The notes under the pieces are model-generated. The model had not been told where the DNA came from, made no database searches, and saw only the letters and a program-made list of their open reading frames with translations. A stretch of 64,000 nucleotides of DNA, from assembly GCF_027921845.1 (NCBI RefSeq), contig NZ_BSEN01000015.1, positions 62,001 through 126,000 of the forward strand, read 5' to 3'. Both the position numbers and the translations under genes were made by a program. This document shows positions 2,984-29,508 of this stretch, piece after piece. Position 1 is the first letter of the stretch. The number at the start of each line of letters is the position of its first letter. Origin of the DNA: Leifsonia poae (lineage in GTDB: Bacteria > Actinomycetota > Actinomycetes > Actinomycetales > Microbacteriaceae).

Positions 2984-4747
2984 GTGCCTACACGCCTGAC
3001 GAACTATTTCCTGCGGACCCTTCGAGAAGACCCCTCCGACGCCGAGGTCATCAGCCACCGGCTGCTGGTCCGCGCCGGATACATCCGGCGGCAGGCGCCG
3101 GGGATCTTCGCCTGGCTGCCGCTGGGGCTGCGTGTGAAAGGCAAGATCGAGGCGATCATCCGCGACGAGATGACCGCGGCCGGCGCCCACGAGGTGCACT
3201 TCCCCGCGCTGCTGCCGCGCGAGCCGTACGAGGTCACGGGCCGCTGGGAGGAGTACGGCGACGGCCTGTTCCGTCTGAAGGACCGCAAGGGCGCCGACAT
3301 GCTGCTCGCGCCGACGCACGAGGAGGCCTTCACGCTGCTTGTGAAGGACCTGTACTCGAGCTACAAGGACCTGCCCCTGGCGATCTACCAGATCCAGGAC
3401 AAGTACCGCGACGAGGCCCGCCCGCGTGCCGGCCTGCTGCGCGGGCGCGAGTTCACGATGAAGGACGCCTACACGTTCGACTACACGGACGCTGGGCTGG
3501 ATGCGAGCTACCAGTCGCAGCGCGACGCCTACGAGCGCATCTTCACCCGTCTCGGGCTCGAGTACGTGATCGTGCAGGCGGATGCGGGCGCGATGGGCGG
3601 CTCCCGCAGCGAGGAGTTCCTGCACCCGACTCCCGTCGGCGAGGACACGTTCGTGCGCTCGGCCGGTGGCTACGCGGCCAACGTCGAGGCGTTCACGACC
3701 CTCGCGCCGCCCACCCGCTCGTACGAGCACCTCACCCCGCTCGAGGTGCTGGACACGCCGGACACGCCGACGATCCAGACGCTCGTCGAGGTGGCCAACA
3801 CGAAGCACCCGCGACCCGACGGCCGCGCCTGGACGGCGGCGGACACCCTCAAGAACGTGGTGCTCGCGCTGACGCACCTCGACGGATCCCGTGAGATCGT
3901 CGTCGTCGGCCTGCCCGGCGACCGCGAGGTCGACCTCAAGCGCGCCGAGGTGGCGTTCGCCCCGGCCGAGATCGAGCCTGCGACGGAGGCGGACTTTGCG
4001 CGCCACCCCGGGCTCGTCAGGGGCTACATCGGTCCCTGGTCTGCCGAGGGACAGGTTCTCGGCGAAGACGGAGCGACGGGCATCCGGTACGTCGTCGACC
4101 CGCGCGTCGTCGACGGTTCCGGCTGGATCACCGGCGCGAACATCCACGGCAAGCACGTGTTCGGCCTGGTCGCCGGGCGCGACTTCGGCTGGGACGGCAC
4201 GGTCGAGGTCGCCGAGGTTCTGCCGGGGGACCCCGCGCCCGACGGCTCCGGCCCCGTTGAGCTGGCCCGCGGCATGGAGATCGGGCATGTCTTCCAGCTC
4301 GGCCGCAAGTACGCGGACGCGCTCGGCCTCAAGGTGCTCGACGAGAACGGCAAGCTCGTCACGGTCACGATGGGCTCGTACGGCATCGGCGTGACGCGCA
4401 TCCTGGCGATCATCGCCGAGAACAACAACGACGACAAAGGCCTGATCTGGCCGGCGTCGGTCTCGCCGTTCGATGTTCACGTGCTCGCGGCCGGTCGCGA
4501 GCCGGTGGTGTTCGAGGTCGCGGAGGAGCTGACGGCCGCGCTCGAGGGCGCAGGGCTCGACGTGCTGCTCGACGACCGCCCCAAGGTGTCGCCGGGTGTG
4601 AAGTTCGGGGACGCGGAGCTGATCGGCGTGCCGAAGATCGTCATCGTCGGCCGCGGCGCCGCCGACGGCGTGGTCGAGCTGTGGGACCGCCGCACCGGCG
4701 AGCGCACGCAGCTCCCGGTCGCCGACGCCGTCGCCGCGCTGCGCTGA
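2984..4747 (+). CDS. proS: Prolyl-tRNA synthetase, bacterial type
   Basis: This class II aminoacyl-tRNA synthetase charges tRNA-Pro. At 587 residues it has the bacterial architecture: catalytic core with motif 2 [16 protein letters not shown] (from about residue 141), an inserted YbaK-like editing domain (roughly 225-390) that removes mischarged Ala, motif 3 GSYGIGVTR (around residue 464), then a C-terminal anticodon-binding domain. The GTG start is chosen because [17 protein letters not shown] matches the family N-terminus and a TAACAT -10 box ends 6 nt upstream. It appears monocistronic; a large palindromic repeat follows its stop. Confidence 0.97.
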
Positions 4748-4767
4748 CGCGCGCGCCCGCTCCGTTT

Positions 4768-4832
4768 CGCGCGAGAGGTGCCGAATGTCGCTCATTCACA
4801 CCGAATGACAGACATTCGGCACCTCTCGCGCG
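4768..4832. repeat. 22-bp perfect inverted repeat (REP-like palindrome), copy 1
   Basis: The arm 4768-4789 (CGCGCGAGAGGTGCCGAATG then TC) is the exact reverse complement of 4811-4832. The 21-base loop itself holds a smaller inverted repeat, TCATTC (4792-4797) with GAATGA (4803-4808). The right half recurs at 5772-5797, downstream of the next gene. There is no U-run, so it is not a standard intrinsic terminator, although it could stop transcription from proS. Confidence 0.9.
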
Positions 4833-4897
4833 ATTGGTTTTCCACAGATTCGCGCGGAGGGTCGTTCTGAGGGGAGGCGCGCGGCGAGGATGGCGGG

Positions 4898-5773
4898 ATG
4901 CGCCGCACCGTTCCACTCCCCGCAACCCTTCCGAGGGCTTTCGCGACGAGCGTCGCCTCTGAGCACGGCGTCGCACCCCGGCGGCTTCGTGCCCGGGATG
5001 TGCAGCACCCGTTCCACGGGGTGAACGCCATCGGCGACGTCAGCGCGGTCGAGGCGTATCGGCACCGGATGCTGCCAGGGCAGTTCTTCAGCCATCACAC
5101 GGCCGCGATCGTTCACGGGATTCCCCTTCCTCGGACGGGGCGCGCAGTCCACGTCGCGGTCGTGGCGCCGCGAACCCCGCCCCGCGCATCGGGCGTCGTC
5201 GGCCACCGGGTTTCGGCCGACGTCGAGGTGGTGACGTTGCCCGACGGAACCCCCGTGTGCTCAGCGGCGGACACCTGGTGTCAGCTGGCTGTTGCGCTCA
5301 GCACATCGGACCTGGTTGCGGCGGCCGACCATCTTCTCGGCGCCAGAGGCCGACCGGCGATCGCGTCGGTCGATGAACTCGACCTCGCTGCACGCCGGCA
5401 CGCCCGCGGTCGCGGCGCCCGTGCGCGTCGCGACGCGATGGCTCGGGCGCGGTGGGGGAGCGACTCACGGCCGGAGTCGTTGCTGCGCCTGCTCGTGGAA
5501 GACCTCGAGGTCGGCGATGTCCTGATCAACCATCCTCTGACGGTCGGCGGCCGCACGCTGCATCCCGATCTGCTGGTTCCGTCGAGGTCGCTGATCCTCG
5601 AGTACGAGGGCGACCATCATCGCGTGGAGCGCGACCAATGGAATCACGATCTGGCGAGATACGACGCTTTCGCTGCGGCGGGCTGGCGCGTGATGAGAGT
5701 GACCTCGCGCCAACTCTTCGACGACCCCGAAGGCCTGGCGCGACGGGTGCGAAATGTGCGTCAAACGACCTGA
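4898..5773 (+). CDS. DUF559/Vsr-like nuclease-fold protein with AbiEi-like N-terminal part
   Basis: The 291-residue protein has two parts. The N-terminal region (about 1-130) resembles the antitoxin-like region of AbiEi-type actinobacterial proteins (FFSHHTAAIVHGIPLP). The C-terminal region (about 185-285) fits the DUF559/very-short-patch-repair endonuclease fold, with candidate acidic residues E193, D224 and E235/E237 in RPESLL, LHPDLLV and ILEYEGDHH, then a late WRVMRVT strand. Function is unknown; proteins like this occur scattered as single genes in Micrococcales. Its stop codon TGA (5771-5773) adjoins a second copy of the half-palindrome found upstream at 4803-4832, so gene and repeats look like one unit. 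Possible toxin-antitoxin or repeat-associated nuclease. Confidence 0.75.
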   Translation: MRRTVPLPATLPRAFATSVASEHGVAPRRLRARDVQHPFHGVNAIGDVSAVEAYRHRMLPGQFFSHHTAAIVHGIPLPRTGRAVHVAVVAPRTPPRASGVVGHRVSADVEVVTLPDGTPVCSAADTWCQLAVALSTSDLVAAADHLLGARGRPAIASVDELDLAARRHARGRGARARRDAMARARWGSDSRPESLLRLLVEDLEVGDVLINHPLTVGGRTLHPDLLVPSRSLILEYEGDHHRVERDQWNHDLARYDAFAAAGWRVMRVTSRQLFDDPEGLARRVRNVRQTT

Positions 5774-5797
5774 ATGACCGCCATTCGGCACCTCTCG
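5772..5797. repeat. Second copy of the right half of the 4768-4832 palindrome
   Basis: GAATGACCGCCATTCGGCAC with the following CTCTCG matches 4803-4828 at 24 of 26 positions. It overlaps the stop codon of the DUF559 gene. Confidence 0.85.
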
Positions 5798-5828
5798 GCG
5801 GAGAGGCGGAGAGGCGGAGAGGCGGAGA
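5797..5828. repeat. 8-bp tandem repeat, four copies
   Basis: GGCGGAGA is repeated exactly four times directly after the half-palindrome and before the convergent DUF1206 gene. Confidence 0.95.
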
Positions 5829-5840
5829 GACCGGTGGGCG

Positions 5841-6626
5841 TCAGAGGCGGATGGCGACGGCGCGCACGCACCAGAAGACGCCGTACGCGATGAGGCCGAG
5901 GCCGATCGCGAGCAGCAGGAAGACGCCGTACGGGAGTTGCGTGAGCGACTTGAGGGCGCCGTCGAGTCCGGATGCCTTGCCCGGGTCGTACGTGACGGCG
6001 CCCGCCACGATCAGGCCGCCGACGATGCCCAGCGCGATGCCCTTGGCGATGTAGCCGACGCGACCGAGCGTGACGGTCGCCGGCGCGAGCGCGTTCGGGG
6101 GGAGCCGCATCCCGCGCTCGAAGGTCTTGCGGATGCCGCTGACCAGGAAGCCGATCCCGACCGCGACGACGATCAGACCGATCAGCGCGAGCACGAACAC
6201 GCCGCCGGGCGTGCCGAGCAGCTTCGCGCTCGCCGACTTCTCCGATGCGGACGAGTTCGATCCGCCGCCGAACGCGACCGTGATCGCGGTGATCGCCAGT
6301 ACGAGGTAGACGACGCCCTTCGCGATCTCCGAGACGCGTTTCCATGCCTTGCGCGCGACCACGGTTTGCAGGATCTGCCAGAGCGTCAGCGCGATCAGGC
6401 CGACGATCACGGCCCAGACGACGAAGAGACCGCCAGGCACCTTCACGAGCGCCTGCAGGGCGCCGGACTGGTCGGCGTTGCCGCCGCCGGTGCGCAGGGC
6501 GATCGCGATCGCGATCACGCCGATCAGGATGTGCAGCAGGCCGATCGCGGCGTTCCCCACGCGCGCGAGGGTGCGGACGATCGGATTGTTCTCGGCTCGG
6601 CGCGCGAGGACTTCGGAGTCGGGCAT
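5841..6626 (-). CDS. DUF1206 membrane protein
   Basis: The 261-residue protein contains three repeats of a two-helix unit, each with a Gly-rich YxxKG or GxxxxG pattern (VGNAAIGLLHILIG, IAKGVVYLVLAIT, VGYIAKGIALGIVGG), as in the DUF1206 family; six membrane segments are expected. The function is unknown. The ATG at 6626 is preferred over an in-frame GTG at 6635 because a TACCGT -10 box ends 7 nt before it. It is divergent from nusA and sits where rimP is often found in related genomes. Confidence 0.85.
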   Translation of the reverse strand: MPDSEVLARRAENNPIVRTLARVGNAAIGLLHILIGVIAIAIALRTGGGNADQSGALQALVKVPGGLFVVWAVIVGLIALTLWQILQTVVARKAWKRVSEIAKGVVYLVLAITAITVAFGGGSNSSASEKSASAKLLGTPGGVFVLALIGLIVVAVGIGFLVSGIRKTFERGMRLPPNALAPATVTLGRVGYIAKGIALGIVGGLIVAGAVTYDPGKASGLDGALKSLTQLPYGVFLLLAIGLGLIAYGVFWCVRAVAIRL

Positions 6627-6633
6627 GGCGCTC

Positions 6634-6639
6634 ACGGTA
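6634..6639 (-). promoter_or_regulatory. -10 box of the DUF1206 gene (leaderless type)
   Basis: TACCGT on the minus strand, 7 nt before the ATG at 6626. It overlaps the alternative GTG start at 6635 and argues against it. Confidence 0.5.
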
Positions 6640-23407: not shown

Positions 23408-23420
23408 CCGCCCGCACACG

Positions 23421-23481
23421 ATCGAGTCCGAAGTTGCTGCGACGACACGCCGCGATTCAGCGCAACAAGTTCGGACTCGAT
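23421..23481. repeat. 21-bp imperfect inverted repeat between convergent genes
   Basis: ATCGAGTCCGAAGTTGCTGC plus G (23421-23441) matches the reverse complement of 23461-23481 at 19 of 21 positions over a 19-base loop. It lies between the CynX-type transporter and the ROK kinase, both of which end here. It may act as a bidirectional terminator or be a REP-like element; its sequence is unrelated to the 4768-4832 palindrome. Confidence 0.8.
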
Positions 23482-23517
23482 TGCGTGGGTGCGGGTGCGG
23501 GGGCGGGGCGCGGAGCG

Positions 23518-28954: not shown

Positions 28955-29508
28955 CGGGTCGCCGCGTCCATCGCGGCCAGGAACGCGCGGTAGGTGCCGT
29001 CGACATCGCCGTCCGCGGCGTCGATGCGCACCGTGCCGGGCCGCTGGTCCACCACCCCGAGCATCCGCTCGTAGTACTCGCGGATGCTCGGGGTGCCGGG
29101 CGTGCTCTGCAGCGCGCTCGCATCGCGGTGCCGGTCGTCGGTGGGCGCGGCCGAGCGGCGTTCGAACCGGCGCTCGGCCTCGTCGGGGCCGGTCAGCAGC
29201 ACGACCTCGACGAACGGGCAGCCCACCTCGAGGCTGAGCGCCTCCAGTCGTTCGATGAAGTCGATTCGGGCGAGAAGCTGGGGGACCACCACGTCGTGCC
29301 CGGCGAGCAGGTGCGTGCGCGCCATCCCGATCGCGAGATCGCGGGCGTGCAGCCCGGCCTCGGTGGGGGAGCCGCGCCAGTGCCCGAGCAGTCCGCGCAC
29401 CACGTCGATGTCGAGCACCAGCGCGAGCGGATGCTCCTCGGCGTACCGTTCGGCGATGGTCGACTTGCCTGCCGACGGAGCGCCGTTGATCAGAGCGAGT
29501 GTTGCCAT
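28951..29508 (-). CDS. Small P-loop kinase/ATPase (chloramphenicol-phosphotransferase-like)
   Basis: The 185-residue protein begins MATLALINGAPSAGKSTIAE, a clear Walker A (GAPSAGKST, residues 9-17), with VLDIDVVRGLLGHW, a lid-like segment rich in Arg (ERRFERRSAA) and a C-terminal REYYERMLGVVDQRPG. It resembles the AAA_33/CPT-like small kinase group; the substrate is unknown and no toxin or resistance context is visible. A TAGACT -10 box ends 6 nt before the ATG. Its stop codon overlaps that of the convergent aldehyde-dehydrogenase-like gene (CTAG). Confidence 0.82.
   Translation of the reverse strand: MATLALINGAPSAGKSTIAERYAEEHPLALVLDIDVVRGLLGHWRGSPTEAGLHARDLAIGMARTHLLAGHDVVVPQLLARIDFIERLEALSLEVGCPFVEVVLLTGPDEAERRFERRSAAPTDDRHRDASALQSTPGTPSIREYYERMLGVVDQRPGTVRIDAADGDVDGTYRAFLAAMDAATR

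Follow-up and report, generated by a model that had tools for sequence, protein, structure and literature searches.

Palindromes of about 60 bases that bracket a family of nuclease genes suggest an unrecognized enzyme-repeat pairing

A single gene standing between two copies of one palindrome raises the question of whether the enzyme and the repeat belong together, and what the one might do to the other. The gene considered here (4898–5773, forward strand), which according to domain search and predicted structure encodes a 291-aa AbiEi-like/EDxHD nuclease fusion protein, lies in the window, that is, the whole stretch of 64,000 nucleotides that was analyzed (G000:C15:62001-126000), in a genome of 4.07 Mb. 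Its upstream neighbor (2984–4747, forward strand) is prolyl-tRNA synthetase-like (Pfam PF00587, PF04073, PF03129), and we take its exact name to be proS; the convergent downstream neighbor (5841–6635, reverse strand) encodes a DUF1206 protein (PF06724, E 7.2e-45). An earlier note on this DNA had likened the arrangement to a mobilized cassette or to a pair of REP element and processing nuclease, and had thought it a candidate selfish or immune-like unit. The comparisons described below suggest an unrecognized enzyme-repeat pairing, in which a gene family is bracketed by lineage-specific palindromes of about 60 bases that are dispersed in the cases checked.

The upstream palindrome (4767–4833, no strand assigned) is an intact member of what is here called family A, whose element, 59 nt long, forms a hairpin with a 5-nt loop between arms of 27 nt; its 59-nt core occupies 4771–4829 and is scored at 77 bits, on both strands, by the R1 covariance model. 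The 22-bp inverted repeat noticed earlier (arms 4768–4789 and 4811–4832) is real and lies inside a perfect repeat of 23 bp (arms 4767–4789 and 4811–4833); with mismatches the arms grow to 31 nt at 94% complementarity (4767–4797 and 4803–4833), and the inner TCATTC/GAATGA repeat is part of these longer arms. On the other side of the gene, the match of 24 of 26 positions at 5772–5797 is correct as reported, but it is not a copy of half the palindrome: it belongs to a degraded whole family A copy of 60 nt at 5738–5797 (no strand assigned; 75% identity over 60 nt), to which the R1 model gives 51.6 bits at 5740–5798 and within which the stop codon of the gene (5771–5773) is contained. The four GGCGGAGA copies described earlier are also present as perfect tandem units 3' of this downstream palindrome (5797–5828, forward strand), units that are not known to belong with the enzyme and its palindromes. 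Because only three hairpins of score at least 14.5 occur in the 64-kb window, the upstream palindrome being the strongest, and because family A is found at 22 places in the genome (E ≤ 1e-3, both copies beside the window gene being counted), the palindrome is beyond chance. Taken alone, the 11-mer GGTGCCGAATG shows no excess in the window at up to two mismatches (25 occurrences, 24.5 in shuffles), and Rfam gave sub-threshold matches only (MIR918 at 33 of the 268 bits needed, CRISPR-DR12 at 19 of 37). A strong hairpin of score 16 at 29053–29095 of the window falls outside all families described here.

In an AlphaFold model of the protein (pLDDT 96.1), structure comparison matches residues 3–185 with AbiEi (6y8q; Z 10.9, rmsd 6.1, 174 aligned) and residues 188–291 with I-Bth0305I (3r3p; Z 12.6, rmsd 2.5, 94 aligned), the latter part also matching 3hrl (Z 12.4) and Vsr (1cw0, Z 11.9). 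The gene can accordingly be divided into an AbiEi-antitoxin-like part (residues 1–186; 4898–5455, forward strand) and a Vsr/I-Bth0305I-type nuclease domain (residues 188–291; 5459–5770, forward strand). That the C-terminus is of the Vsr/DUF559 nuclease type had been claimed before; its Pfam matches (PF18741, E 6.4e-6; DUF559, E 4.9e-4) are both below the curated cut-offs, DUF559 only just, and the claim holds in that the nuclease fold is clear when the predicted model is compared with known structures. Residues E193, D224, H241 and D251 do not vary in any of the 68 homolog rows of the alignment and, judged from the alignment, are consistent with a putative EDxHD site, the motif assignment being our own. 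The 68 homologs match PF18741 (REase_MTES_1575) in 61 cases and PF04480 (DUF559) in 41 (E ≤ 0.01); the resemblance to these two families lies in the C-terminal nuclease domain, whereas the family descriptions make no mention of palindromes.

The N-terminal fold likewise resembles the antitoxin of the type IV toxin-antitoxin system AbiE, but differs from it in being fused to a nuclease and in having no AbiEii toxin as a flanking gene on either side. AbiEi is part of a phage-defense toxin-antitoxin system, and PADLOC gave weak AbiEi matches (and no others) for the window protein (E 5.6e-4) and for one of the two other homologs scanned; both facts would suit a role in defense, with foreign DNA as the target of the nuclease and the palindromes serving as self-tags or as sites of storage. 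Such a role is nevertheless very improbable, as the gene is flanked by a proS-like gene and by DUF1206 and, among the scanned proteins, no NCBIfam or PADLOC entry extends over the full fusion. The immune-like unit of the earlier note as such finds no support.

Seen in its own genome alone, the family A palindrome is misleading. Eight matches to the window protein are present there at E ≤ 1e-27 and family A lies beside only one of them; the other A places are not beside homologs because different homologs carry different palindromes. A palindrome scattered without link to DUF559 genes, the outcome that was earlier held to speak against a pairing, is therefore what this genome seems to offer, but a comparison of relatives shows a strong link. 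Searched by plain BLAST (E ≤ 1e-6), the palindrome is present in 1 of 28 genus genomes, which suggested a species-private repeat; this was ruled out by the covariance model, which finds relatives of the palindrome in 29 of 119 genomes. Of the 25 genus genomes classed as having the subfamily, 23 have A-type hits, and of the three without it none does (p=0.003; the 28 genomes were classified and the p value obtained by hand, with G017 counted via a partial gene). In G010 and G011 the gene is present with other palindromes.

A match to the window protein was found in 75 of the 119 genomes searched, and the association of gene and palindrome was evaluated in 77 genes, namely the best 72 matches among the 119 genomes (to E 2.2e-39) and five lower-ranked paralogs from the own genome. 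A hairpin of score at least 12 lies within 300 bp of a gene end in 63 of the 77, and on both sides in 34. The density of hairpins of score at least 14.5 is 2.9/kb upstream and 3.1/kb downstream in the first 100 bp, compared with 0–0.16/kb at 500–4000 bp from the gene. In every one of the 34 two-sided genes the two hairpins match each other, with scores of 21–53 against a maximum of 17 for shuffled arms; in 25 of them no other palindrome outscores the partner across the gene, and in nine that of another gene does. Cross-gene pairs score at least 20 in 12% of 1122 cases, which is read as close relatives having a common palindrome type. A second copy is found opposite the first in 23 of 29 one-sided genes, bringing the two-sided genes to 57 of 77, and with the palindromes also dispersed, the idea of a REP element and its processing nuclease is supported as a pairing. 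Fourteen of the 77 genes have no detectable hairpin, the own paralogs L034 and L035 among them; flanks are similar in six of these 14 (L129 being the least convincing), and L035 has matching flanks whereas L034 does not. One locus, L118 (G004:C2:857340-858092), has an in-frame stop and no hairpin within 300 bp, and is perhaps a decayed unit.

Hairpins of this strength are not a general feature of gene ends. At 40 fetched loci, control ORFs have a hairpin of score at least 14.5 in 10 of 92 cases versus 28 of 40 for the homologs (Fisher p 2e-11). The same score is reached at 5 of 25 DUF1206 genes: in G011 by the downstream palindrome of the homolog itself, in G005, G006 and G020 by a lone A-like palindrome each, and once by an unrelated hairpin. 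Where the nuclease domain occurs in other ORFs of the own genome, none of three loci has a hairpin of score at least 12, the long frame of L040 being covered only in part by these control loci. The same counts bear on the suggestion that the gene is flanked by chance by ordinary terminators acting in both directions, or by hairpins at mRNA ends. Many copies do lie at the 3' ends of genes, but the hairpins are far fewer at other ORFs, the sequences on the two sides of a gene are similar and yet differ between paralogs, and a search of positions 4600–6000 of the window gave no terminator-like site, on which ground identity with a terminator was rejected; this explanation deserves next to no credence.

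The pairing extends, with weaker association than in the 77-gene set, to other families of the order: among loci fetched for 30 of 43 matches, 17 have hairpins and nine are two-sided, all nine matching (scores 30–53). A further 20 loci from named genomes, obtained with a narrower alignment, have hairpins near 14 and are two-sided in five; they were kept out of the 77, several being apparent duplicates with equal palindromes and a few gene ends seemingly being overshot. A single-protein search of the named genomes gave no match. Plasmid homologs were found on three large Arthrobacter replicons, with matching flanks in two, and the palindrome of the third recurs on a sister plasmid, at a distance of 1.7 kb from that plasmid's homolog; the phages searched contained no homolog.

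Gene and palindrome also diverge together. Using the alignment of 68 of the 77 genes (nine omitted) and the 56 of these that have a hairpin, palindrome similarity tracks protein identity (Mantel rho 0.34, equaled in 0 of 500 permutations): among pairs with less than 40% protein identity, 1 of 1065 reaches a palindrome score of at least 20, and among those above 70%, 17 of 17 do. When the palindrome types are mapped on a 28-row tree, which was made without L118 and L125 and has a poorly resolved base and long branches, nine changes are needed (the minimum being eight), compared with a mean of 18.1 in shuffles, 0 of 200 of which were as low. Such codivergence can alternatively come from shared descent at fixed loci, and the gene does appear to be mainly inherited in place, because one neighborhood is common to 22 of 26 tested subfamily loci (L108 being left aside). 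For the same reason the mobilized cassette is mostly unsupported. Genes in this common neighborhood nonetheless carry different palindromes. The window gene's own-genome relative at the common site, L030, has a hairpin of another kind with 13-bp arms, no second copy of which was found above shuffles.

The window gene and its relative in G011 form a separate pair at a second site, between proS and DUF1206. The earlier note had proposed a comparison of empty and filled forms of this site in close strains, and both exist, the site being filled in the window genome and in G011 and empty in G013, where 18 bp separate the two stops; a jumping cassette is all the same disfavored. A lone palindrome stands beside DUF1206 in G005, G006 and G020, and in G007 there is a short interval without it. 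These empty and filled sites, for the gene and apparently also for the lone palindrome, are what could be expected if the palindromes were MITE-like, moved by another transposase, with the gene as a passenger between two copies. A passenger, however, is not expected to have a lineage-specific palindrome that diverges along with it, and a survey for transposases of the Y1 type found none in the own genome, so that movement of this sort is very improbable.

Dispersal is not peculiar to family A. The palindrome of the own paralog L031 is found at 12 places in the own genome (E ≤ 1e-3), and that of a gene from another genus, in G048, at 24 places there (E ≤ 1e-3), both flanks of the gene being included in each case; the G048 palindrome has one chance match in G055. 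A further family in the own genome, B, has the CGAATGT core in common with A and is represented by 10 aligned copies, taken from 12 places at E ≤ 1 with the two weakest omitted, just as the family A alignment comprises 20 of its 22 places. Compensatory changes are clear in family B (nine double-change pairs versus 5.3 in shuffles, 0 of 500 as high) and weak in family A (10 versus 7.5, 41 of 500 as high). The two families also occur in alternating arrays, A-B-A-B-A at C1:309947-310439 and B-A-A-B-A at C15:766998-767491.

A label-free scan of 864 kb of the own genome gave 64 hairpins of score at least 14, of which 14 are A, B or paralog palindromes and 42, mostly shorter, fit no family described here. 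The same scan yielded two families de novo, D and E, of four long palindromes each. Family D proved to flank the own paralog L035. Family E, one copy of which is the 73-nt palindrome beginning ATCGAGTCCGAA at 23415–23487 of the window (no strand assigned), resembles the palindrome beside a G011 homolog that belongs to the neighborhood cluster of the own L033 and that is the likely cognate of this family; in the same way, family B is similar to the two palindromes that accompany the G011 relative of the window gene. Copies of B and E are thus present in the own genome, where no cognate gene was identified for either, and we infer that both are leftovers of earlier specificities.

The positions of the palindromes bear on a further alternative, that they are operators of the AbiEi-like part, with autorepression from the upstream copy, a regulon or decoys in the scattered copies, and a nuclease that does something else. 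The likeness of the protein to AbiEi is in keeping with it, and so is the position of the upstream palindrome, at a median of 71 bp before the start codon and mostly within 40 bp upstream of a TCCACA/TGTGGA motif. The elements (median length 59, quartiles 56–63) overlap the stop codon, however, in 44 of 50 downstream cases, which would be an odd place for an operator. Divergent placement is also scarce. Among 41 dispersed copies examined (18 of 22 for A, 9 of 12 of the L031 type and 14 of 24 from G048), 18 are in convergent intervals, 17 in tandem and three in divergent ones, with one in a called ORF and two unclassed; baseline gene pairs (n=122) are convergent in 22, tandem in 55 and divergent in 45 cases. 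Divergent intervals hold 3 of 38 intergenic copies versus 45 of 122 in the baseline (Fisher p 4.5e-4), a rough tally, since the gene caller was crude, missing the window gene and misclassing one copy. REP elements, too, typically avoid divergent (promoter) regions. A purely regulatory role for the palindromes is accordingly regarded as unlikely.

The motif just mentioned is a regular part of the leader. In the window it is represented by TTTTCCACA (4838–4846, forward strand), which starts 60 nt before the start codon and which, on our own assumption, is named DnaA-box-like. TCCACA/TGTGGA occurs between -120 and 0 in 65 of 76 homologs, most often around -46 to -57 or -75, and in 129 of 2761 background windows; in the order set the figures are 15 of 30 leaders versus 14 of 433. 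Other ORF starts have it in 7 of 115 cases, and dispersed copies have it beside them in 1 of 18 and 0 of 14 cases in two groups. The extended form CTGTGGAnAAC, read from the opposite strand, resembles a DnaA box.

How the pairing relates to known systems can now be considered. REP-like palindromes are a common kind of repeat in bacteria; to our knowledge the RAYT family is the only enzyme tied to them. The layout found here is like that of RAYT and REP in having a gene between two palindrome copies and related extragenic palindromes dispersed elsewhere, in forming mosaic arrays (A-B-A-B-A) as in BIMEs, and in the mostly stable position of the gene, RAYT genes being described as staying mostly in place. 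It differs in that the enzyme is unrelated and lacks a Y1/HUH domain. Identity with a RAYT was ruled out by the protein's AbiEi and Vsr folds and by the lack of a Y1 domain in the own genome, where PF01797 was not found at E ≤ 10, and the earlier proposal of a RAYT-like layout with a different class of enzyme stands. Inspection by eye of the A and B copies with 20-nt flanks revealed no GTAG-type head. These nuclease-palindrome pairs are in Actinomycetota, their element is about 59 nt long, against 20–40 for REP according to PMC3733652, and they occupy 12–24 places, against usually over 100 for REPs according to PMC2817692.

The nuclease domain points to a different comparison. The EDxHD enzyme I-Bth0305I, according to a review (PMC3943268), dimerizes on a target of nearly 60 bp, a length close to that of the element here; the window protein also shares with it, and with Vsr, the nuclease fold and the E-D-H-D residues. 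By analogy with that published target, which a dimer binds, the palindrome may act as duplex DNA, as the site of a dimer, and not as a hairpin. In contrast to EDxHD homing endonucleases, the window gene is free-standing between proS and DUF1206, has an AbiEi-like DNA-binding part, and has a presumed site that is not split, a whole palindrome being present on each side; because whole sites flank it, it is not a standard homing gene.

The reading that we consider distinctly probable is that of a family of enzyme-palindrome pairs, for which we infer that the nuclease recognizes and cuts its own palindrome and that repair spreads the copies. The protein, probably as a dimer, would recognize its own palindrome of about 59 bp as target and would nick or cut it, either in duplex DNA or as a hairpin exposed in replication; repair would then copy the palindrome into new intergenic sites and keep the copies alike, expression would be coupled to replication through the DnaA-like element, and the enzyme gene would stay mostly in place. 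A fuller version has about even chances of being right: here the AbiEi-EDxHD nuclease is an undescribed selfish or domesticated element of Actinomycetota that cuts its own palindrome of about 60 bp and copies it with replication, several orthogonal pairs sharing a chromosome, with switches of specificity that left B and E as orphan families. In the open-access literature searched, no link of DUF559/AbiEi nucleases to palindromes was recognized. If the pairing is true, a second, unrelated class of enzyme has the REP-RAYT layout, which would point to two separate origins of the arrangement, the present one being a convergent counterpart derived from an enzyme of the homing-endonuclease type. A large and unassigned nuclease family would also acquire a role, and, because genes in the same neighborhood carry different palindromes, it would provide many natural enzyme-target pairs in which to study changes of nuclease specificity.

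Two further features of the palindromes deserve mention. The A-B-A-B-A array lies in locus L020 (G000:C1:308674-311735), where it is regular and BIME-like. In several families (L098, L101, L111) each arm contains a smaller palindrome of its own, for example ATTCG-TGC-CGAAT; over 97 elements, stems within arms have a mean of 4.42 versus 3.32 in shuffles, and this nesting recalls paired REPs.
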